IMG/VR virus record: IMGVR_UViG_3300044631_003673
Coordinates: 1 to 30,705 of that record
Reading direction: 5' to 3' (one strand)
From: a virus
DNA: 30,705 bases
The stretch's first letter is position 1. Every line of letters starts with the position of its first letter. A program made the translations under genes and the position numbers. Under the pieces are notes generated by a model that was given only the letters and a program-made list of their open reading frames with translations, did no database searches and was not told the DNA's origin. This document shows positions 7,012-30,705 of this stretch, piece by piece.

Positions 7012-7440
7012 TCAGTCCTCCGTGACGGTGCTGGCGGTGGTGAGGCGCGGCGTGATTCCGTTGCCGCACACGATGGTGGGCGAGATGGCGCCCTTGTAGA
7101 GAATCTTCCCCGCGCCGCTGGACGCCGTGCCGATGGCGAAGTGCGTGGCCGTGCCGCTGCCGCCCGTGCCGGTGGGGAAGTCGATGTTGGCCGCCGGACT
7201 CACCGAGTTGCCGGTGACGGTGAAGCCGGAGCCGCTCCGCGCCACGGCGACGCGCGCATAGGAGGTGTAGGCGATTTCGCTTGTCGTCTGGTCGCCCGCT
7301 TCCCCTGGGTCGCCCGTGTGCAGCGAGACGTGCAGGTTGGTAAGGGGCGCCGACGCCGCGTTGTCCGCGAGGTTGGCAATGGCGGTTGCGTTGAAAATCA
7401 GCCGCAGCAAGTCGTTCTCGAAAGTGTTTCCCTTTGACAT
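7012..7440 (-). CDS. phage tail fibre-like structural protein (142 aa)
   Basis: The N-terminus MSKGNTFENDLLRLIFNATA, followed by the LHVSLHTGDPGEAGDQTTSE segment and the Tyr-rich YTSYARVAVAR, is a widespread phage family often labelled tail fibre protein. The middle has VTGNSVSPAANIDFP and the end has HFAIGTASSGAGKILYKG and TPRLTT. The protein is a small beta-rich domain. It lies between a small membrane protein of the lysis region and the conserved gene at 5904, the same order remembered from other phages. The true virion location is not proven by sequence. Confidence 0.8.
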   Translation of the reverse strand: MSKGNTFENDLLRLIFNATAIANLADNAASAPLTNLHVSLHTGDPGEAGDQTTSEIAYTSYARVAVARSGSGFTVTGNSVSPAANIDFPTGTGGSGTATHFAIGTASSGAGKILYKGAISPTIVCGNGITPRLTTASTVTED

Positions 7441-7443
7441 GGC

Positions 7444-7671
7444 TCAGCTCTCCTTCTGCGGTTGCTGGTTGGGGCGCCGAGCGGCGAACGACTCCGCAAC
7501 GCGGCTGCCGTGCGCCGACGCCACGACGGTGACGATGGCGATGCAGTACTCGCCGAAGCCCGCTGCAGTGCCGGCGACGTGCACGACGAAAACGAAGACG
7601 AACGTGAGCACCGCGATGGCGATGCACGCGAGGTGGAGCTTCGTGCTGGCCCAGCCGCTGCGAGGTTGCAT
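7444..7671 (-). CDS. small membrane protein with two predicted TM helices, holin candidate
   Basis: The 75-aa product starts at ATG 7671, overlapping the upstream stop (ATGA). A first hydrophobic helix spans about residues 12-36 (LACIAIAVLTFVFVFVVHVA) and a second, weaker one about 39-54. The C-terminal 20 residues are polar with Gln and Lys. Two TM helices, short length and a place at the end of the lysis block fit a class II-like holin. It has no family motif I recognise, and another holin candidate exists at 8596. Confidence 0.65.
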   Translation of the reverse strand: MQPRSGWASTKLHLACIAIAVLTFVFVFVVHVAGTAAGFGEYCIAIVTVVASAHGSRVAESFAARRPNQQPQKES

Positions 7672-8192
7672 CACCACTCCAGGGAGACGGAGGCGCCGGC
7701 CGCGCCCACGGTGTTGACCCATGCGCCCGCCGAGACGCCGCCCACGATGCGCCGCTCGAGCGACGCGCCCAGCACGAGAGGCCCGGCCAGCGGGACGAGC
7801 GGCTCCCGCAGCGACGCCCCGACAAGCACGCCCACCCGCCAGTCAGGCCGGAGGGTGGTGGTGCTCGAGCTGGTTGCCTCGGTCTTGCCGCTGCTCTCCG
7901 ACGCCCTCCCGAGGTCGACGAGCTCGCGCGTGTCGGCCTTCGTCGTGGTGAGGCGCCTCTCGCGCACCTCGCCCTCGGGGCTGACGACGCGGTCGACGTA
8001 CACCACGCGCTCCTCGGCCTTCGCGCGCCGGGTGACGACCTTCTCGACGATGCGGTCCTTCCAGACGACCTTCTCCACCTCGCGCACGTCCACCTTCACC
8101 GGCGCAGAGAAGCGGCCCGCCGAGAACGCAGCCGCAGCCGTGCCCACGAGGGCAACGGCCGTGACGACGCGCTGGCGAGCCTCGGGCGTCAC
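7671..8192 (-). CDS. N-terminally anchored coiled-coil protein of the lysis block, spanin-like candidate
   Basis: The 173-aa product starts at GTG 8192, overlapping the lysin stop (GTGA). Residues 8-27 form one TM segment or signal anchor (RVVTAVALVGTAAAAFSAGR). Next is a strongly charged, Val-rich heptad-like stretch (about 32-75) and then a beta-rich Gly-containing C-terminal half (WRVGVLVGASLREPLVPLAG) ending in VSLEW. Membrane anchor plus coiled coil next to a lysin is the layout of an inner-membrane spanin, but the C-terminal beta domain is not typical of Rz. Similar uncharacterised genes sit beside DUF5675 genes in other phages. Confidence 0.7.
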   Translation of the reverse strand: MTPEARQRVVTAVALVGTAAAAFSAGRFSAPVKVDVREVEKVVWKDRIVEKVVTRRAKAEERVVYVDRVVSPEGEVRERRLTTTKADTRELVDLGRASESSGKTEATSSSTTTLRPDWRVGVLVGASLREPLVPLAGPLVLGASLERRIVGGVSAGAWVNTVGAAGASVSLEW

Positions 8193-8599
8193 GGTGGTGG
8201 CCCGATGGTGATGGTGATGTGGTGCGGCCCCTGCGCGTTCTTGAGCTTCTCGAAGAGCGCATTGAAGGCCGCTGTCGATTCGAGCACCTTGTCGGCCTCG
8301 CGCTTCCGGCCCGGGAGGAGACAGCCCTCGGTGTGGCTGGCGTCGTTGCCCGCGTGGATGCGGATGCCCTTGAAACCTGGGACGTCCATCACGAGCGGCA
8401 AGTCGCGCTTGAAGCGCGGCGACGGCGTGATGCGCACCTCGAAGCGCCCGCAGGGGATGGCCGTCTGCCCGTACACTTTCGGCTCCGGCGGGGGCCGGTA
8501 CCTGTCCTCGAGAATGAAGCACTCGAAGGCGCCGTCCGCGTACAGCTCACCGATGGTCGATCGCGGGGTGAGCCAGCGCCGTTTCAGCTCAAGATTCAT
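8189..8599 (-). CDS. DUF5675-family protein, probable peptidoglycan-acting lysin
   Basis: The 136-aa product starts at ATG 8599. It reads GELYADGAFECFILEDRYR (17-35), GQTAIPCGRFEVRITPSPRF (44-63), then PGFKGIRIHAGNDASHTEGC (74-93). This is the DUF5675 family pattern. The GIRIH...HTEGC part (His82, His89, Cys93) resembles the His/Cys catalytic segment of L,D-transpeptidase-like enzymes, so peptidoglycan peptide cleavage is plausible but not proven. It lies between genes for membrane-anchored proteins, with 4-nt overlaps on both sides, as expected of a lysis cassette. No signal peptide is present, so it would depend on a holin. Confidence 0.8.
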   Translation of the reverse strand: MNLELKRRWLTPRSTIGELYADGAFECFILEDRYRPPPEPKVYGQTAIPCGRFEVRITPSPRFKRDLPLVMDVPGFKGIRIHAGNDASHTEGCLLPGRKREADKVLESTAAFNALFEKLKNAQGPHHITITIGPPP

Positions 8600-14467: not shown

Positions 14468-15945
14468 TACCGGCCTCCCTGTCCGCGGCCCGTGCGCTGC
14501 GCGTTGTAGAAGCCGCGCCCGCCGTCCGCCTCGAAGAACTCCCTCGTGTTGCGTGAGTCGAAAGTGTTGATATTGACGGTCGGCCCTGCGGCAGCTGCGC
14601 GCACGCCCGCGCCGGCCAACCCGCCGATGGCTCCACCCAGCGCGCCACCGATACCGGGCAGCAGCACGTTGCCGACGATGGTGCCGAGCGTCTGCAACAG
14701 CCCCGCGAGGATGTTGGCCACCACCTGCCCGGCGTCCTGCTCCCCGCCAGACGCAAGCGCCTGAATGCCCTGAGACACTGCGTCGGCGAATGCCGCGCCT
14801 ACCTGTGCGCCGGCTTGGGCAAAGCGCGCCTGCTCGGCCGCCAGCTTCGACGCTGCCTCGCGCGTGGCCTTCAGGTAGTCCTCGAGCGACTTGGCGTGCG
14901 ACTCGGCCATCTGTCGCTCTGCCGCGCGCTGTGCCTCGGCCATCTGCTGCCACTGCGCCCCCGACGGCGCTTCAGGCCCTTCGGGCGTGAGGTCGATCTC
15001 GAAGCGCGACATGTCCATGACGCCGCCGTCACCTCGGTTGCGACCTCCTCCAGTCACGACGTCGTCGTCTTCACCGGCCGGCTTCTTTCGTCTTTTGAGC
15101 GCCTCTTCTGCCGCGCGCTGCGCCTCGCGCTCGGCCATCATCATGTCGACGGCGCGCGCGCGGGCCTGCTCCAGCCCAATCTTCGCCGACCGTACATCTC
15201 CCTCTTGCGCGCCCGGGAGAAATGAAAGCGCCGCATCCTTCAGCGCCCCGAGTCCACCAGCCTTGACGAAGAACTGCGCCTCGCGCAGCGACTCGCCGAA
15301 TGTCTTGAGCAGCGAGTTGACCTTACTCAACGCTCCCGACTTCTCGGCCGTGTCGGTGATGAACCCGCCGAATGCCTTTCGCACGTCGTCAAAGGCGTCT
15401 TCTGCCAGTCGCACTTGTCCCGCCAGCGAGGCCGCGTCAGCCGCTCCCGCACCGCCGAACTTCTTCCCGAGGGCATCGGCCGCTCGCCGCAAGTCCTCGC
15501 TGCGCTTGCCGGTGGCGTCGAACGTCACGCCCATGGCCTTGAGGGAGCCCGACCCCGTCTCGACTCCCCGAGTCAGCGCCTCCGCCGCCGCGCGCGCATC
15601 CGTCCCCGTCGCCGCGGCGAAGTCGAGGACGGCCTGCGTAGTGGCCTCGACGTCCTTGGGTGCCGCGCCGTACCGCAACAGCAGCGTCTGGATGGACTCG
15701 ACGAGCTCGCCCGAAACCGCGTTGGCCTGCGCGAGGGCCGACGCCTGGGCCTGAAACGCGCTCGTCATCTCCTTCGCGACGACGGCGAGTTGGCGCTGAC
15801 TGCGCTCGGCCTCCATGTAGCTGCGCACGCTGGCGCGCGCGAAGTCCACCAGCACCTGCTGGGCGCTGCGTGCCGCTGACGACACGGACGTGAAGGCCGA
15901 CGACGCGGCGTCCTCACCCAGAATGCGCAGCTGCAAGTCAGCCAT
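14467..15945 (-). CDS. tail tape measure protein (short, 492 aa)
   Basis: The protein is long, helical and Ala-rich, beginning MADLQLRILGEDAASSAFTS. It contains a TGTDARAAAEALTRGVETGS segment with KAMGVTFDATGKR just after, which is characteristic of phage tape measure proteins. A charged low-complexity section follows (about 270-350). A Gly-rich hydrophobic segment lies near the end (about residues 422-458, LLPGIGGALGGAIGGLAGAG), a likely membrane-active part. At about 1.5 angstrom per residue the tail would be near 70 nm, a short siphovirus tail. Its start overlaps the second chaperone gene by 8 nt. Confidence 0.85.
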   Translation of the reverse strand: MADLQLRILGEDAASSAFTSVSSAARSAQQVLVDFARASVRSYMEAERSQRQLAVVAKEMTSAFQAQASALAQANAVSGELVESIQTLLLRYGAAPKDVEATTQAVLDFAAATGTDARAAAEALTRGVETGSGSLKAMGVTFDATGKRSEDLRRAADALGKKFGGAGAADAASLAGQVRLAEDAFDDVRKAFGGFITDTAEKSGALSKVNSLLKTFGESLREAQFFVKAGGLGALKDAALSFLPGAQEGDVRSAKIGLEQARARAVDMMMAEREAQRAAEEALKRRKKPAGEDDDVVTGGGRNRGDGGVMDMSRFEIDLTPEGPEAPSGAQWQQMAEAQRAAERQMAESHAKSLEDYLKATREAASKLAAEQARFAQAGAQVGAAFADAVSQGIQALASGGEQDAGQVVANILAGLLQTLGTIVGNVLLPGIGGALGGAIGGLAGAGVRAAAAGPTVNINTFDSRNTREFFEADGGRGFYNAQRTGRGQGGR

Positions 15946-16708: not shown

Positions 16709-17890
16709 TCAGGTGAGGGTGAGAGAGAGGGAGTCGTTGCCCGCGTTGTCGCGCACGCGGAACGAGAGGTCGACGAGCGCCACATCATCCGCCGAGTCCG
16801 CCGAGTCCGGGGCGATGACTTCCGCGAAGGGCATCGACAGCGTCAGGATGCGCCCCGCGCCCGTGCCCTGCACGATGGTGACGGGGCAGTTGCGCCGCGC
16901 CGTGCTGCGCCCGCGGAAGGACTCATAGTCCTCGTAGAGGACGCCGCGCATCGACAGCTCGACGTTGTACCGAATCGCCTTCAAACCCTGCACGCGCCGG
17001 TTGCCCGTCTCGCCCGGCAGGTGGCTGATGCCCGTGGTGAAGGCCACCTCCCACGACTGCATGCGCAGCGAGACGCCGTCGACGGTGACGGTGGACGTCG
17101 ACTCGGGCAGCGGCCGGCCCGTGGGGTTGCTGACGGAGGGGACGAAGGGCACCAGCGGCTGCGCCGTATGGGCTGCGGCCGTCGTCGAGAGGACGCCGCG
17201 CACGATGGTGGCCGTCGTCCCGCCCGGCGTCACCGCCGTCACCTGGATGGCCTCCGACTCGCACAGGTAGAAGCCCAGGCCCAGCCGGTACGACTCCTCG
17301 GCCGTGATGGTGAGGGACGTCGCCGTGCCGTTGGCCAGCGTGATGGAGTCCAGCTTGCCGCGCAGCTCCTTCCCGACGAAACGCCCCGACGCCATGAGGC
17401 CCGCCTCGGTGTCGCCGCCCTTCCACGTCAGGCGCTCGACGGCCCCGCCGTACCCGCGCTCGGCCGACTGCGCGCCCAGCTGCGTCGAACCACCGCGCAC
17501 GCGCTCGAGCGTGAGGCCCGAGAGGAGGGGGTTGGGCTCGCCCGCCGTCGCATACACCACCGACGTGCCCGCGTTGACGGTGCGCGCGAGTCCCGCGGCG
17601 CGGTACAGCGCGTCTTCGGCCGGCACCGTGTCGACGGCCGCGCGGCCCTTCAGCGACGTCTCGAGGCTCCAGGGGATGAGCTCGACGCGCCCCTCAATGA
17701 AGTCGTTCTGTGCGCCGCGGCCCAGCGCCCGGTCGCGCTTCGGGCGGATGACGCCGGCTTCGACGGGGCCCATGTTGACGGCCACTACCTCGAGCGCCTG
17801 CGCGGCGGCCGGGTTGGGCGGCGTGCCGAACGTCGTCTCGAGGACGGCAAGGACGCGGGAGTCGTACGCGCGGATGGGGACGATGGCCAT
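16709..17890 (-). CDS. major tail (tube) protein
   Basis: The 393-aa protein starts MAIVPIRAYDSRVLAVLETT and contains VVAVNMGPVEAGVIRPKRDR (35-54), which fits the first strands of a tube-forming protein. The central domain carries DSITLANGTATSLTITAEES, and the end has VDLSFRVRDNAGNDSLSLTL. It lies between the tail terminator candidate and the chaperones, the standard tube position. It is longer than typical tubes of 150-250 aa, which suggests an extra surface domain. No sheath gene is found nearby, so the tail is non-contractile. Confidence 0.75.
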   Translation of the reverse strand: MAIVPIRAYDSRVLAVLETTFGTPPNPAAAQALEVVAVNMGPVEAGVIRPKRDRALGRGAQNDFIEGRVELIPWSLETSLKGRAAVDTVPAEDALYRAAGLARTVNAGTSVVYATAGEPNPLLSGLTLERVRGGSTQLGAQSAERGYGGAVERLTWKGGDTEAGLMASGRFVGKELRGKLDSITLANGTATSLTITAEESYRLGLGFYLCESEAIQVTAVTPGGTTATIVRGVLSTTAAAHTAQPLVPFVPSVSNPTGRPLPESTSTVTVDGVSLRMQSWEVAFTTGISHLPGETGNRRVQGLKAIRYNVELSMRGVLYEDYESFRGRSTARRNCPVTIVQGTGAGRILTLSMPFAEVIAPDSADSADDVALVDLSFRVRDNAGNDSLSLTLT

Positions 17891-17899
17891 GGGGCTACC

Positions 17900-19294
17900 T
17901 CACGGGGTGATGCTGGGGCGGTGAAACACCTTGACGGTGACGGTGAGTGACGCGACTTCGGTGGGGCCCCCGACGGGCCGCTTGGCCTCGTCGAACGCCT
18001 GAAACGGCATGCCCTTGATGCGCATGCGAGTGACGTCGGTGTGCACGACGTCGCCGACGCGCGCACGCCCGAGGGTGCGGCCGTCGTCCGACGTCAACAA
18101 CTCGTGCACGGCACGCGCGCACGACTCCAGCGTCTCGCGGCTGCGGTGTCCGCCAGCGGCCCTGTCGGCCACCCACACGGCAACGTCGAGGGTGACGGTG
18201 TGCTCGTCTCGACGCACGCCGCCCAGCGGCACGGCGTCCCTGTCGCCGATGATGACGGCGAACGTCCGCCCCATGTCCGGCAGCGACACCGGCCAGCCGT
18301 CGAGGACGCCCTTGTGCGTTGGCGCTGTGAGGGCCGTTGTCGTCTCGTACGCGCCTTCTTGTGGCCACCCGAAAAGGGCATTCGACGCGCCCGCCGTCAC
18401 ACGCGCCACCGACTGCACGCCCTCTGTGGGCGCGGCTGCCGTGAGGACGAGACGCCCATCGCCGTCGGCCGACGCGGTGAGGCCAGGGACGGGCGCGGCG
18501 TTGATGGCCGTCGCCACCTGCGCCGCCGTGACGGCCGGCCCCGTCGGCAGCGTCACCGTCGTCACCACTCCCTCTCGGGCTGTGGCGAGGGCGAGGCTGC
18601 CGCTGGAGATGTTCCACGTCCCGACGGCGGGCGACTTCAGCACAGCGCCGCGCAGGGCGTTGAGCTGCGCCACCTTCGCGGGGAGGTAGCGCAGGAGGTA
18701 GTCCCGTAGCGCGCCGGCCGCCAACCGCGTCGGCTGCACTCCCACCGACGGGGCGAGGGGCAACGGCGCGCCGCCACCTTCGACGAGGGGCACCGACGAG
18801 AAGGCCCAGTACGGCTGGTTGCTGCCTGCTGGGCCGTCCAGCCGCCCCTCGATGCCCGCCGCGACGTCGGCCGACGTGGGCGTCAGCGCGAAGAGGTACG
18901 CGCCAGCAACGACGGCCAGCGACGGCGGCGTGCGCGGGTTGCCTGCGCTGTCGTCGTACAGGCCCACCGTCGGCGCAGCGCCCGTCCACAGCGCACCCGC
19001 CTCGTCCTCGACGTGCGCGGCCCAGAACTGGTTGCTGCCGTCGGGCAGGTGCAGGCCCCACGTCACGCGGCGCGGCTCCGCTCCGGCCCCGAAGTCCACC
19101 AGCGCGACGGTGCCCGCCGTCTCGTCCGCGTCCGACGGCGTGAAGGCCCAGACGCCGCCGCCGAGGTGCGACGGCGCGGCCGGGGGCGTGCGCGCGCTGC
19201 CCGCCCTGTCGCGGTAGTCGACAAAGGACGGCGAGCCCGTCGTCAGCGGGGCGCCGGTGGAGTCCAGCACGAGAATGGAGCGAGCGTCAGCCAT
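17900..19294 (-). CDS. tail terminator candidate fused to duplicated beta domains (464 aa)
   Basis: The C-terminal part (about residues 320-464) has the features of a tail terminator/completion protein: GVRRDEHTVTLDVAVWVADR, a TLESCARAVHELL helix and terminal strands ending in TVTVKVFHRP. In front are two related beta units (about 10-95 and 96-170), each with a TPP motif and a pattern like GGVWAFTPSDADETAGTVAL / GAYLFALTPTSADVAAGIEG. A middle unit (about 225-315) with TAAQVATAINAAP resembles a flagellin/hook-type inserted domain. Terminators are usually only 130-150 aa. Position before the tail tube supports the call. The added domains may decorate the neck. Confidence 0.65.
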   Translation of the reverse strand: MADARSILVLDSTGAPLTTGSPSFVDYRDRAGSARTPPAAPSHLGGGVWAFTPSDADETAGTVALVDFGAGAEPRRVTWGLHLPDGSNQFWAAHVEDEAGALWTGAAPTVGLYDDSAGNPRTPPSLAVVAGAYLFALTPTSADVAAGIEGRLDGPAGSNQPYWAFSSVPLVEGGGAPLPLAPSVGVQPTRLAAGALRDYLLRYLPAKVAQLNALRGAVLKSPAVGTWNISSGSLALATAREGVVTTVTLPTGPAVTAAQVATAINAAPVPGLTASADGDGRLVLTAAAPTEGVQSVARVTAGASNALFGWPQEGAYETTTALTAPTHKGVLDGWPVSLPDMGRTFAVIIGDRDAVPLGGVRRDEHTVTLDVAVWVADRAAGGHRSRETLESCARAVHELLTSDDGRTLGRARVGDVVHTDVTRMRIKGMPFQAFDEAKRPVGGPTEVASLTVTVKVFHRPSITP

Positions 19295-19297
19295 GCG

Positions 19298-19534
19298 TCA
19301 GGGCGTCTGGTCGACGTCGGGGAGCGGCTGCGCGTCGACGAAGCTGTTGAACTGCCCGGGCCGGTCGGCGGCGAAGTCGCGCTCGGCGGTCGCGCGCTGT
19401 GCGTCCAGCTTCGCAGCAAGGTCTTGAATCACCGCGATTGCGTCGCCGAGCTCTTCGCGAAGGCGTCGCCGGGTCGCGGTACCCGTGCGCACCGCGTCGA
19501 TGAGTGTCCGCGCCTGCTGTCGTCCGATGCCCAT
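19298..19534 (-). CDS. small helical protein (78 aa), unknown function
   Basis: I do not recognise this protein. It starts at ATG 19534 and ends three bases before the terminator candidate. It is highly charged and helical (RRLREELGDAIAVIQDLAAK), with an acidic Pro-rich tail, and no Cys or membrane segment. A longer overlapping open frame on the same strand (19287-19541) is Arg/His-rich and looks like a shadow. Being between the fibre-like gene and the terminator candidate, it may be a small neck or chaperone protein. Confidence 0.6.
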   Translation of the reverse strand: MGIGRQQARTLIDAVRTGTATRRRLREELGDAIAVIQDLAAKLDAQRATAERDFAADRPGQFNSFVDAQPLPDVDQTP

Positions 19535-19542
19535 GAGCCACC

Positions 19543-20721
19543 TCAGATGATGTTCGATATTTCCCAGCTGAACGGAAGCGCTGCCGTCGCGTTCGCCGTG
19601 CCTGACACCGTGAAAGAGCCCGCGGCCGGAACTGCGATGATCTCCTTGCAGGTCGCGTCGCGGGCGTGCGGGGTGATGATCACGCGTGAGGCCGCCGTTA
19701 CCAGCGAGTTCGTGATGACGACGGACGACGCGCCCGCCGCGATGGCGCTTTTCCCCGTGGGGCGGTTGATGGTTGCTGCGCCGGGCGTGCCGGTCGAGTC
19801 GGTGCCTAGATGAGATTGCCGCCCGTTTATCTCAAACCGTACAAGGTTCCCAAGCACAGCCTGGTCGGTCAGCGTGGCGCTTCCGTTGTCGAGAACCCAT
19901 CGAATAGCCCCGAACCGCATTTGAGCGCCAATCGAGTCGTCGACAGAAACAAATCCGAGAGAGGCTGACGCGCCGCGGAACAACCCGAACGTGGGCGCTC
20001 CGGCCCGAAAGTCGCCTTGCTTGTCGATCCAGATCTTCTCGACCTCGGTCCCACCGAGGCCTGTCCGCACGGAGAACAGCTTGGCGAGCGCGTTCACCGA
20101 GCCATCGGCGAGAGTCGTTCCGACTTTACTCACGACGTCGGAGGCGCCCGCGCCGAGCGTACCTCTGACGTCAACGCTCATGCCTGCGCCAGCGGCGAAC
20201 ACGCCCGCGGTCGAGTTCAGATTGCCGCCCGCCGTGAACGAGCCACTCGCCCGCGACGATCCCGTGCCGAGGTTGAGAGCGAGCGCGCCCGCGCCGTTCA
20301 GGTTGTACAGCCCGAGTTCGGCGAGCGCGATCCGGTGCCCGACCTGCCCTTGCGAAACACCCGGTCGGTCTGAGAGGAAGCGACCGAACGCGACCGACTC
20401 ATCGACGATCATTGCACCCTTGACCAGGCGGGCGTGCGTCACCTCGGTTCCACCGATTCCAGTTCGCGCGCTCCAAAGGTCGGCGGTCGCGTTCACGCTC
20501 GCATCGGCCACGGTCGACCCGACAACGTTGCACACGTCGGACGCACCCGCGCCGAGGTCCGAGCGCAGGTCGAGCCGCGCGAGTCCTGCGGTGATGCCGA
20601 GCTGGAACACCGCGCGGGCGAGGAACGTCTTCGCCCCGGCGAACGTCTGCGCCAGCGTCGAGACGAGGCCGCGCACCGTGGCGCTGGCGTTGGGCGGCGA
20701 GCTGGGCGTCAGGCCGGGCAT
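19543..20721 (-). CDS. fibre-like or neck appendage protein with duplicated module
   Basis: The 392-aa protein begins with Pro/Ser-rich residues, then GLVSTLAQTFAGAKTFLARA (18-37), a segment resembling the start of phage fibre domains. Two copies of a module of about 45 residues follow: LGAGASDVCNVVGSTVADAS (56-75) to RTGIGGTEV (86-94), and LGAGASDVVSKVGTTLADGS (189-208) to RTGLGGTEV (219-227). The C-terminal domain has VVITNSLVTAASRVIITPHA and ends in FSWEISNII, typical of small fibre-tip domains. It lies among head-tail connector genes rather than with the distal fibres, which suggests a neck whisker or head fibre. Confidence 0.7.
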   Translation of the reverse strand: MPGLTPSSPPNASATVRGLVSTLAQTFAGAKTFLARAVFQLGITAGLARLDLRSDLGAGASDVCNVVGSTVADASVNATADLWSARTGIGGTEVTHARLVKGAMIVDESVAFGRFLSDRPGVSQGQVGHRIALAELGLYNLNGAGALALNLGTGSSRASGSFTAGGNLNSTAGVFAAGAGMSVDVRGTLGAGASDVVSKVGTTLADGSVNALAKLFSVRTGLGGTEVEKIWIDKQGDFRAGAPTFGLFRGASASLGFVSVDDSIGAQMRFGAIRWVLDNGSATLTDQAVLGNLVRFEINGRQSHLGTDSTGTPGAATINRPTGKSAIAAGASSVVITNSLVTAASRVIITPHARDATCKEIIAVPAAGSFTVSGTANATAALPFSWEISNII

Positions 20722-20722
20722 G

Positions 20723-21268
20723 TCACTCGTCTCCCTTCACGTCGGCGAACTCGTCGAGCCCCGACTCCCGCACCGCGTTGCGTACGCCCCGCGCGGCGGC
20801 GCGCTGAAGCTGCCGGTCGAAGTCTGGACCGAAGTCGAACGGCGGACGCGGCGGCATGCGCGCCGTGCCCGTCTGGTGAAAGCTGGCGTAGTCGAGCCCC
20901 TGCGTGCCGTAGTTGAATTGCACGTCGGAGTAGTCGCGCAGCGCGTGCGGGCTGCCCTCGACGGTGAGCGCGTCACGCAGCGCGCCCGTCGCGACGAGGA
21001 GCGGCTGCCCGGGGAACGCGTCTTCCTTCCACGCGGCGTAAGACGCCGACAACTGCGCCCACGCACCGGCCACCGGCCCTGCGCCCTCGGCGTCGAACTG
21101 CGCCTTCACGCCCGCTTCGAGGACGGGCACCAGCTCGGGGAAGATGTGCTTGCCAAAGTTTGCCGTCTCGGCGCCCGCACGCTCGAAGGCCACGGCAAGG
21201 CGCTCGAACTGCTGTTCGCCCGAGGCGTTGCCCACCTGGTACTCCAGCGTGATGGCGACGGCAGTCAC
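20723..21268 (-). CDS. gpS/HK97 gp10-like head-tail joining or tail completion protein
   Basis: The 181-aa product has the layout of phage virion morphogenesis proteins: an N-terminal amphipathic helix (GEQQFERLAVAFERAG), then AWAQLSASYAAWKEDAFPGQ (69-88), PLLVATGALRDALT (89-102), and DYASFHQTGTARMPPRPPFD (126-145). The pattern L.aTGaLr.alt...Y.a.hq.Gt...ppRpf is well known in these families. It precedes the tail tube module as expected for a neck protein. The start is ATG 21268, overlapping the upstream stop by 4 nt. Confidence 0.8.
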   Translation of the reverse strand: MTAVAITLEYQVGNASGEQQFERLAVAFERAGAETANFGKHIFPELVPVLEAGVKAQFDAEGAGPVAGAWAQLSASYAAWKEDAFPGQPLLVATGALRDALTVEGSPHALRDYSDVQFNYGTQGLDYASFHQTGTARMPPRPPFDFGPDFDRQLQRAAARGVRNAVRESGLDEFADVKGDE

Positions 21269-29029: not shown

Positions 29030-29235
29030 GACTCCACCTCCGGGCTGCCGGTGTGTGCGACGTAGCGCCGCGAACGGATTTCACTCTCGGCCGCCCGCGC
29101 CAGGGCCAGCGCCATTTCATCCAGCACGTCCGCGCGCTCGTCCTCCGGCACCTCCGCGCGCACGACGGCCACCAGCGCCTCGATGAGTTGCGCCGTCCAG
29201 CGTCGGGCCTGGGCCTTCGCCACCTCGTCCGTCAT
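29026..29235 (-). CDS. small helical protein (69 aa), unknown function
   Basis: I do not recognise this protein. It starts at ATG 29235, overlapping the HNH gene's stop, with GGAGGT eight bases upstream. It is charged and helical (AQARRWTAQLIEALVAVVRA), with ERADVLDEMALALARAAESE after it, and without Cys or membrane segment. Its last codons (EVES-stop) contain the GGAGGT that serves as ribosome site for the next gene. Confidence 0.6.
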   Translation of the reverse strand: MTDEVAKAQARRWTAQLIEALVAVVRAEVPEDERADVLDEMALALARAAESEIRSRRYVAHTGSPEVES

Positions 29236-29711
29236 GATTCAACCTCCGACCCAACGTGACGCCACGACTCGCGTCGGATGATTTTGCTAACGCGCGCCGT
29301 CGTCACACCATAGCGCACTGCAAGGTCAGCTTGTCGCCATAGCCCCGAGTCGTACAGGCGCCTCATCTCAGCCACCTTTCCCTCGGTCAACTTCGCGGCG
29401 CCGCTGGAACTACCACGTGGCGTGTTTGCTCTCCCCTTGGCCACCATGTCGCGCATGTTGTCAAAGCGAGTTCCAAGCCAAAGATGGGCTGGATTGACAC
29501 ACGCTCTCACGTCGCACCGGTGTAGTACGTGGAGTTTCCCGGGGTCGCCAAAGCGCAGCAACCAAGACACCCTATGGGCTCTCTCCAGGCGCTCGCCGTT
29601 CTGAATGGCGCCGTAGCCATCTCGAAAGGTCGCACCGGTCCACAGCCAGCACCCGACATTGGGTTCTGGAGTCCACTTCTCGTCAAACCGCTGCTCAAGT
29701 GTCGTCCTCAT
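29232..29711 (-). CDS. HNH endonuclease with C-terminal HTH (homing-type)
   Basis: ATG 29711 is chosen because it overlaps the RusA gene's stop by 4 nt (ATGA); GTG 29720 is an alternative. The 159-aa product has CWLWTGATFRDGYGAI (21-36), AHRVSWLLRFG (45-55) and VLHRCDVRACVNPAHL (63-78), the HNH_3-type fold with Cys66/Cys71, Asn73 and His76. LTEGKVAEMRRLYDSG and LAVRYGVTTARVSKIIRR (108-147) form a helix-turn-helix. GC content is lower than in neighbours (57% in one 60-base row against 75% in a row of the DUF5681 gene), so recent arrival is likely. Free-standing homing endonuclease is the best call. Confidence 0.88.
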   Translation of the reverse strand: MRTTLEQRFDEKWTPEPNVGCWLWTGATFRDGYGAIQNGERLERAHRVSWLLRFGDPGKLHVLHRCDVRACVNPAHLWLGTRFDNMRDMVAKGRANTPRGSSSGAAKLTEGKVAEMRRLYDSGLWRQADLAVRYGVTTARVSKIIRRESWRHVGSEVES

Positions 29712-30136
29712 TCGAGCCACCAGATCCGCGCCTCCACCTTGGCGTCAGGCCCCCGCGTCCAGTCATAAAGCCACACCACGTCAGGCCCGCCATCGTCCAC
29801 CTCCCAGCGGGCTGCAATCCCGTCGCGAATCGACTTGAACGCCGCCGCGAGGTTGTCGTCGTCGAACGGCCTCGACGACACGCGCGTCAGCACCACCGCG
29901 CACCGACGGCCGTCCCGAATCTCGGCCGCACCTCCAAGCCCCGCGGCCAGCAAGGCGCCGAGCTGTCGCTCCAACTTGCGTCGCGAGTTGGCCGCCATGC
30001 GCGCGCCTCGCGTCGTGCCGCCGCTGCCGTTGAGCGGGTTCTTCAGCTCGTACCGCGCGGACGCCTCAGCGTGCGCGTCGTGCGTCGCGACGCGGGCCAT
30101 CGCCAGGGCCTTCTGTCGGAATTCGTCAGACACCAT
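29708..30136 (-). CDS. RusA-like Holliday junction resolvase
   Basis: The 142-aa product is started at ATG 30136, with GAGGGG 8 nt upstream; GTG 30139 is possible. The RusA signature is visible: VSSRPFDDDNLAAAFKSIRD (86-105) followed by GIAARWEVDD (106-115). The acidic residues of FDDDN, Asp105 and Asp114/115 are the expected metal ligands that cut four-way junctions. A basic region (about 43-58) precedes. Resolution of junctions before packaging agrees with its place upstream of the terminase genes and with Erf-type recombination in the same phage. Confidence 0.8.
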   Translation of the reverse strand: MVSDEFRQKALAMARVATHDAHAEASARYELKNPLNGSGGTTRGARMAANSRRKLERQLGALLAAGLGGAAEIRDGRRCAVVLTRVSSRPFDDDNLAAAFKSIRDGIAARWEVDDGGPDVVWLYDWTRGPDAKVEARIWWLE

Positions 30137-30320: not shown

Positions 30321-30430
30321 GACAGCCACCACGCCAGTCCCGCCAGCGCCAGCAGCGTCAGGGTGTGGCACAGCGCCTCGAATTGGTCGCGGCGGCGCTC
30401 CTTGGTCTCGTGTCTCTCGAACGGCGTCAT
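30317..30430 (-). CDS. 37-aa single-TM membrane peptide
   Basis: The gene starts at ATG 30430, overlapping the methyltransferase stop (ATGA), after GGGGGAACC as ribosome site, and ends overlapping the next GTG. The peptide starts with a charged half (MTPFERHETKERRRDQFEAL) and ends with one hydrophobic helix (about 21-36, CHTLTLLALAGLAWWL). The double 4-nt overlap with real genes and the clean charged/hydrophobic split support a true gene in spite of the size. Confidence 0.6.
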   Translation of the reverse strand: MTPFERHETKERRRDQFEALCHTLTLLALAGLAWWLS

Positions 30431-30705
30431 GGTTCCCCCATCGCGTCGAAGATGGACGTCTGCCCCGCCCGCGCGTCACGCAGCGTCAGCCCGCGCGCCT
30501 CGGCCTCCAATCGCTCACGCGCAACGGCGGCATAGGTGGCGTCCTTCTCAACGCCGATGAACCGCCGCCCGAGACGTAGGCACGCAACGCCGGTGGTGCC
30601 AGAGCCGCAGAACGGATCGAGCACGAGATCGCCGGGGTCGGTGAAGTCGGCGACCAACTCCAGCATCAGCGACAACGGCTTGGGCGTGAGGTGCTGGCTT
30701 CGGCC
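30427..30705 (-). CDS. DNA methyltransferase, N-4/N-6 type (C-terminal part; runs off the right edge)
   Basis: The frame is open to the edge and reads HLTPKPLSLMLELV, then DPGDLVLDPFCGSGTTGVAC and RRFIGVEKDATYAAVARERL. DPFCGSGTT is the AdoMet-binding motif I of the PF01555 family; in the beta class the catalytic DPPY motif lies N-terminal to it, so it would be outside the window. The product methylates adenine or cytosine amino groups in DNA. In phages a lone methyltransferase often protects the genome from host restriction. TTG at 30675 is not a real start because the family motif continues upstream of it. Confidence 0.9.
   Translation of the reverse strand, partial: GRSQHLTPKPLSLMLELVADFTDPGDLVLDPFCGSGTTGVACLRLGRRFIGVEKDATYAAVARERLEAEARGLTLRDARAGQTSIFDAMGEP

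Follow-up and report, generated by a model that had tools for sequence, protein, structure and literature searches.

A decorated tail terminator, whose front module docks the adjoining fiber in a cassette mounted on neck or baseplate, is the reading favored here for a 464-residue viral protein, with a probability of about 0.55. The protein joins two Ig-like units at its N-terminus to a predicted terminator that carries an inserted flagellin-like (IN-like) domain. A portable fiber socket is probable because the front part is found on tail-cap or tail-base proteins, and a fiber gene adjoins it almost always. The window, meaning the whole stretch of DNA analyzed, is the complete IMG/VR virus record IMGVR_UViG_3300044631_003673 (30,705 bases, 70% GC). 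L and G numbers are handles for the records compared with it. The features discussed are the following.

17900..19294, minus strand: whole gene, 464 aa, front module plus predicted tail terminator with inserted IN-like domain (open reading frame; fusion recurring in L003, L007, L028/L030, L035 and L041)
19031..19294, minus strand: front module, Ig-like unit 1, residues 1-88 (duplication; model and fold)
18779..19030, minus strand: front module, Ig-like unit 2, residues 89-172 (duplication; model and fold)
18659..18733, minus strand: first helix of the terminator fold, residues 188-212 (model; start of the terminator alignments)
18338..18652, minus strand: IN-like domain of flagellin/FliD type within the terminator, residues 215-319 (PF07196 at residues 256-287; flagellin and FliD matches)
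17912..18325, minus strand: remainder of the terminator core, strands and second helix, residues 324-461 (model; T5 p142, lambda gpU, Mu and GTA matches)
19298..19534, minus strand: small cassette protein, 78 aa, helical by reading (small open reading frame at the equivalent place in 14 of 16 module records)
19543..20721, minus strand: fiber-like cassette protein, 392 aa, C-terminal part resembling K1-lyase_C (Pfam E 0.0053, under the cut-off; N- and C-domain profiles)
20723..21268, minus strand: Neck1/tail completion protein (phrog_26, E 5.8e-13)
16709..17890, minus strand: probable tail tube protein (phrog_290 'minor tail protein', E 5.4e-11)

The Gene and Its Neighborhood

Head and tail genes are carried on the minus strand and include terminase, portal, Mu-like protease, cement protein, major head protein and Neck1. 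Beyond Neck1 the order is fiber-like gene, 78-aa gene, 464-aa gene, probable tail tube gene and possible tape measure gene (phrog_167, E 6.4e-4). The product of 16709-17890 is probably the tube protein, a weak assignment in that the match to RcWaterboi gp46, annotated as tail tube, has an E of only 0.07. Elsewhere the plus strand encodes an ERF-type recombinase (839-1468, E 5.2e-24) followed by a PD-(D/E)XK nuclease (1465-2715, E 2.6e-12). An HNH endonuclease (29232-29720, E 2.8e-8) and, at the record edge, the end part of a DNA methylase (30427-30675, N6_N4_Mtase, E 6.4e-18) are found on the minus strand.

By their sequences, the 464-residue gene and its fused architecture are real and recur in diverged relatives. 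GC content by codon position in the reading frame 17900-19294 is 0.72/0.59/0.90, and other long genes of the record are similar. The in-frame fusion is also present, along the entire protein, in L003 (96%), L007 (52%) and L028/L030 (48%), and it recurs in L035 and L041, whose C parts are 46% and 47% identical to that of the window. Counting the window, six records carry it, one of them in a bacterial genome.

Predicted Terminator Fold

The 464-residue protein is best explained as a tail terminator, with a predicted fold, that would form the ring capping the tail tube under the neck. Eight homologues served to build a model of residues 185-464, with a mean pLDDT of 79.4 and a pTM of 0.74. In structure comparison it matched T5 p142 (Z 13.6, 146 residues aligned, rmsd 3.3), GTA (Z 12.2), lambda gpU (Z 11.1) and Mu (Z 11.0), and rows 1-23 of the list, at Z 10.0-13.6, all come from necks, collars, tail caps or terminators of phages or phage-like particles. 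Foldseek returned five matches at E ≤0.001, down to 5.3e-5, three of them to terminators or necks and two to flagellar proteins. The terminator matches span the model from about the first to the last residue and align 114-153 of its 280 residues; the flagellin and FliD matches occupy model residues 28-138. The IN-like domain thus appears to be an insertion that separates the first helix (188-212) from the strands, which would put the start of the terminator near residue 187, not 320.

An earlier note, made from the letters of the window alone, had seen terminator features in the C-terminal 145 residues and counted 320 residues added in front of them. Structure prediction, which it had proposed as a check, gives a terminator fold for the C part, and this identification is supported by the modeled likeness to T5 p142 and lambda gpU. 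The extent has to be redrawn: about 185 residues lie in front, and about 105 are inside the terminator fold. The gene position on which the note relied is upheld. Neck1 (phrog_26) lies upstream, past the fiber and small genes, and the phrog_290 or tube-like gene downstream; L030 and L120 are arranged alike.

Other searches for the terminator gave little. A Pfam search of the 464-aa protein matched no terminator family, and a first full-length model had most of the C part below pLDDT 50 and no Foldseek match at E 0.001. Comparison of the C part by hhalign with PF12691-type terminators and RcWaterboi gp44 gave probabilities below 1%, and again below 1% with the IN columns removed. Two Pfam-positive terminators failed mutually in both runs as well, so the comparison is judged powerless, not negative. 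Genome searches of 11 records found one match to PF23840 (RcWaterboi) and none to PF12691, although L014 and L019 pass by hmmscan; these searches are therefore blind. RcWaterboi gp44 itself (L010, 9334-9765), deposited as a hypothetical protein, passes the Pfam Phage_tail_terminator cut-off with E 1.3e-9.

Inserted IN Domain

Pfam Flagellin_IN (PF07196) is matched by the 464-aa protein with E 5.3e-5 and 23.8 bits, the cut-off being 22.7. The modeled unit resembles Vibrio cholerae flagellin (Z 10.2 over 91 residues; 9.6-10.2 for V. cholerae flagellins overall) and FliD (Z 9.2 over 95 residues). What the earlier note called a hook-like unit is thus flagellin-like as supposed, and it belongs within the terminator, where it follows the first helix and precedes the first strand. 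Among relatives, L033 passes PF07196, and L007 (E 0.041) and L035 (E 0.0043) fall under the cut-off. The PF07196 search of L030 and L120 gave no match, although the IN stretch aligns across the family.

Similar units are found in tail sheaths. The IN-like unit matches the Milano sheath at Z 5.2 and, at Z 5.9, a chain in the Mu trunk structure whose 494 residues suggest that it is the sheath. Parts of the report on phage XM1 describe a sheath insertion that resembles FliD D3 (PMC10457771). A long open reading frame, L004:1811-4591 (+), has three stretches in which the family profile is matched, clearly in one (i-E 1.2e-7) and weakly in the other two; by reading it is a tail sheath with IN-like units. 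Tail proteins with IN-like insertions are thus already known. For an insertion of this kind in a terminator, none was found among the matches listed from open-licence PMC literature (titles and abstract starts).

Front Module and Its Anchors

A duplication of one Ig-like unit makes up the front 172 residues, and in the model both copies contain a short helix. Unit 1 against unit 2 has a local score of 101, compared with a shuffled mean of 30.3 (sd 6.2), and none of 500 shuffles scored as high, which bears out the duplicated N-terminal beta units of the earlier note. The duplication test was extended to 15 module proteins (L017 not among them), and in 13 the score was matched by at most 5 of 500 shuffles; the exceptions are L021 (126/500) and L035 (37/500). 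In the fold list for the module, the top places go to a translocon chain (Z 7.0) and to antibody domains (Z 5-6), a level at which the likeness may reflect a common arrangement.

The module is carried in frame by several kinds of protein. A scan with the family alignment detected eight further loci that have only about the first 170 residues in common with the family and have differing partners behind them. Such partners include PF12691 terminators (L014, L019), Tail_P2_I (L018) and DUF2612 (L017); that of L021 is Ig-like by reading, with no Pfam name above the cut-off. Behind the module, L015, L016 and L018 are mutually 62-66% identical, L015 and L016 having no Pfam match of their own. L023 is 79% identical there to L014 and L020 99% identical to L019; L040, with no Pfam match, was grouped with L019 by eye.

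The surrounding genes place the module at two sites of the virion. L023, from a Myxococcaceae MAG, is a prophage whose head genes are of HK97 type, and its module gene lies between those for Neck1 and the major tail protein; in L030 it is between the Neck1 and phrog_290 genes. Baseplate_J is upstream of the module gene in L015 and L018, and in L021 the module gene is between the baseplate hub and the wedge/Baseplate_J genes. The non-redundant set has 16 module records (the window, L012, L007, L014-L021, L023, L030, L035, L040 and L041), from which exact or near copies such as L002 and L036 were left out. The anchors comprise six IN-terminators and five of the second terminator type, giving 11 at the neck, and five at the baseplate; neck placement was checked by context for part of the cases, the remaining ones being assigned by homology.

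Two relatives of the terminator lack the module. L120 and L121 have identical match statistics, were counted once, and encode a bare IN-terminator between the Neck1 and phrog_290 genes. L033:1359-2810 (+), with a C part 69% identical to that of the 464-aa protein, is a terminator in which a GDSL hydrolase domain (PF13472, E 1.1e-11) replaces the module at the N-terminus. At the place of the fiber, L033 has an open reading frame that is possibly lectin-like, its LamG match being under the cut-off. When the fiber, small-protein and module profiles were run against L120 and L033, neither of the two gave any match.

Homologues elsewhere are few. A tblastn search of 50,697 phage records found nothing for the 464-aa protein, the L016 module, the L040 protein or the MCP, and two records for the L023 fiber, in its C-terminal part. 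Profile searches of genome contigs gave none with the whole family and one, L023, with the module. In 195 genomes of one phylum the module profile had three matches, of which G117 (E 1.1e-5, 48 positions) is not phage-like by reading and was not counted as a module phage protein. The C-part profile had two matches in these genomes, one of them weak (E 7.6e-4) and to the IN part only.

Linkage of Fiber and Small Protein

The mark of the proposed fiber-docking module, a fiber gene adjoining it, was found throughout. A match to the fiber N-terminal profile lies upstream of the module in all 16 records, neck and baseplate alike, that of L017 being partial (50 residues, E 1.8e-8, with a LamG reading frame in between). 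The fiber C-domain is present in 15 of the 16, weakly in L041 (E 5e-5) and not in L017. The fiber profiles were built from the window, L007 and L023, which therefore match by construction, and the N-terminal matches of L040 and L041 come from a scan with a widespread fiber motif.

A small protein of 77-88 aa is encoded between the fiber and module genes in 14 of the 16; L041 is without one. At the corresponding site of L017, before the module-bearing baseplate-type gene, 7333-7992 (+) encodes a LamG lectin-like protein (E 2.2e-14). Between the two groups into which the small proteins fall, identity is just 21-43%, which makes a single common family or origin uncertain. Closer pairs can be found, for example the window with L015 (84%) and L012 with L023 (74%).

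The fiber motif scan also provided a control. The short motif is widespread in phages (the best 80 of 113 loci were kept), and the idea that it is specific to module phages was rejected. In the 79 loci examined (from the best 80 of 113), the fiber C-domain turned up six times, the module five times and the small protein five times. All five modules lie among the six loci with the fiber C-domain, and three of the five are on contigs already known, so that the new evidence consists of L040 and L041 in favor of linkage and L039 against it. L039 matches fiber and small protein and has no module within the stretch covered.

Covariation was examined in 14 of the 16 records, L020 being dropped as a near copy of L019 and L017 lacking a full fiber. 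The covariation of the module with the fiber N-terminus is weak (r 0.26, p 0.017), and without one near-copy the correlation is lost (r 0.07, p 0.28). In these 14 records, covariation of the module with either fiber or small protein is not robust.

Apparent Exchange Around the Cassette

The DNA likeness between the window and the otherwise unrelated, baseplate-type L015 is concentrated on the cassette, with 91.9% at 20513-20722 and 71.9% at 18848-20157. Outside the cassette the two share 7467-8587 (88.8%) and a 53-base piece; by reading, the window genes at 7467-8587 look lysis-related. Across most of 7700-28261 the window and the L012 contig are collinear at 91-96%; collinearity is interrupted within the fiber (20158-20440) and at 15028-15327. 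Small-protein pairings (window with L015, L012 with L023) differ from anchor pairings, and the identities of the fiber N- and C-parts are uncorrelated (r -0.06). At the level of DNA, the exchange pattern looks like that of a shuffled host-interaction cassette.

Role of the Module

A socket role is favored by the linkage to the fiber, the joint presence or absence of the parts and the use at two virion sites. In this scheme, for which we infer the symmetry of the ring, the number of fibers and what the IN domain does, the module would be a socket holding the fiber on a six-fold ring. The small protein may help to seat or assemble the fiber, and the IN domain could be an outward spacer or stabilizer. 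Fiber, small protein and module would together be a cassette mountable on neck or baseplate, and here the outcome would be a collar of about six neck fibers meeting the host surface. The earlier note had expected a ring of decorations at the neck. The extra domains on the terminator are there, and their likely role shifts from plain decoration to fiber docking, since the fiber and small genes are directly upstream and the module is also found on baseplate-type proteins. Against docking stand the covariation that disappears when one near-copy is dropped, L041 without a small protein, the partial match in L017 and L039 without a module.

A wider proposal, which we put at slightly below even odds, is that of plug and socket: one Ig-like socket grafted onto neck terminator or baseplate, with fiber, small helper and socket exchanged between unrelated phages. 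If this is true, either end of the tail can bear receptor-binding fibers of one kind.

The main rival to docking, which we regard as unlikely, makes the Ig-like module itself an adhesin or decoration that binds the host surface, the fiber being a separate host-range gene that shares the exchange region. It would suit the Ig-like fold and the fragile module-fiber covariation, and the GDSL hydrolase domain that replaces the module in L033 suggests a surface-directed role for that position. It does not account well for the upstream fiber match in 16 of 16 records (L017 partial) with both anchor types, and in neither of the two module-free relatives.

It is more improbable still that the head-tail joint is strengthened by the extra domains, which would act as a built-in neck decoration or collar, with the fiber attached elsewhere. 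Parts of two reports offer precedents, in that decoration proteins of phage 812 are thought to reinforce neck joints (PMC12886913) and XM1 gp40 reinforces the neck (PMC10457771); yet the same module is also on baseplate-type proteins, and a bare version of the same terminator exists (L120). Mis-joining of a separate front gene, an error that the earlier note had itself raised and that the start of the L120 and L121 terminators without a module might recall, is contradicted by the diverged in-frame fusions of six records (window included, one in a bacterial genome) and by in-frame modules on other anchor classes, and can hardly be credited.

Comparison with Known Systems

Neck fibers and collars are known, and the mounting of new appendages on symmetric rings has mostly been seen case by case. 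The module occurs on terminators of two types and on proteins of baseplate type, a fiber is linked to it, and a matching bare ring is available for comparison; together these amount to a natural experiment in how phages mount and move appendages. For attaching surface proteins to phage particles, the module is a candidate portable mount. Terminators are usually treated as caps, and the present cases suggest that they can act as platforms, even for a hydrolase domain (L033).

The predicted core fold (Z 11.0-13.6) and gene position are like those of the T5 p142, lambda gpU, Mu and GTA terminators. Unlike these proteins of 129-174 residues, the 464-aa protein adds an IN domain and a 172-residue module. 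The statement of the earlier note that terminator rings are normally bare is too strong, for an additional beta-sandwich is described on the phage 812 terminator (parts of PMC12886913), and a portion of PMC11784142 mentions larger terminators that carry further domains. A terminator module common to the baseplate was not found among the matches listed from open-licence PMC literature (titles and abstract starts).

Neck collars with fibers include the T4 whiskers named in a passage of the Milano paper (PMC10491603). In Staphylococcus phage 812, the neck is similar in having, besides the terminator with its beta-sandwich, neck decoration proteins, and the stopper decoration probably attaches whiskers (parts of PMC12886913). 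In contrast, those decorations are separate proteins, and the passages of PMC12886913 describe no module shared with the baseplate. Phage XM1 is alike in that its gp40 collar spikes join the neck at the terminator, where the junction includes an Ig-like domain, and in its FliD-like insertion, there in the sheath (parts of PMC10457771). As described there, the Ig-like domain is part of the spike gp40; in the present case it is part of the terminator, and the fiber is encoded by a gene of its own. The neck passage structure of 936/TP901-1 phages is another parallel; passages of PMC6669499 propose that the BppU N-terminus serves both neck collar and baseplate appendages, with exchangeable tips. 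In those passages the shared domain is on the appendage protein, whereas the present one is on the ring protein. The present arrangement thus differs from known neck collars in that the shared domain sits on the ring protein.
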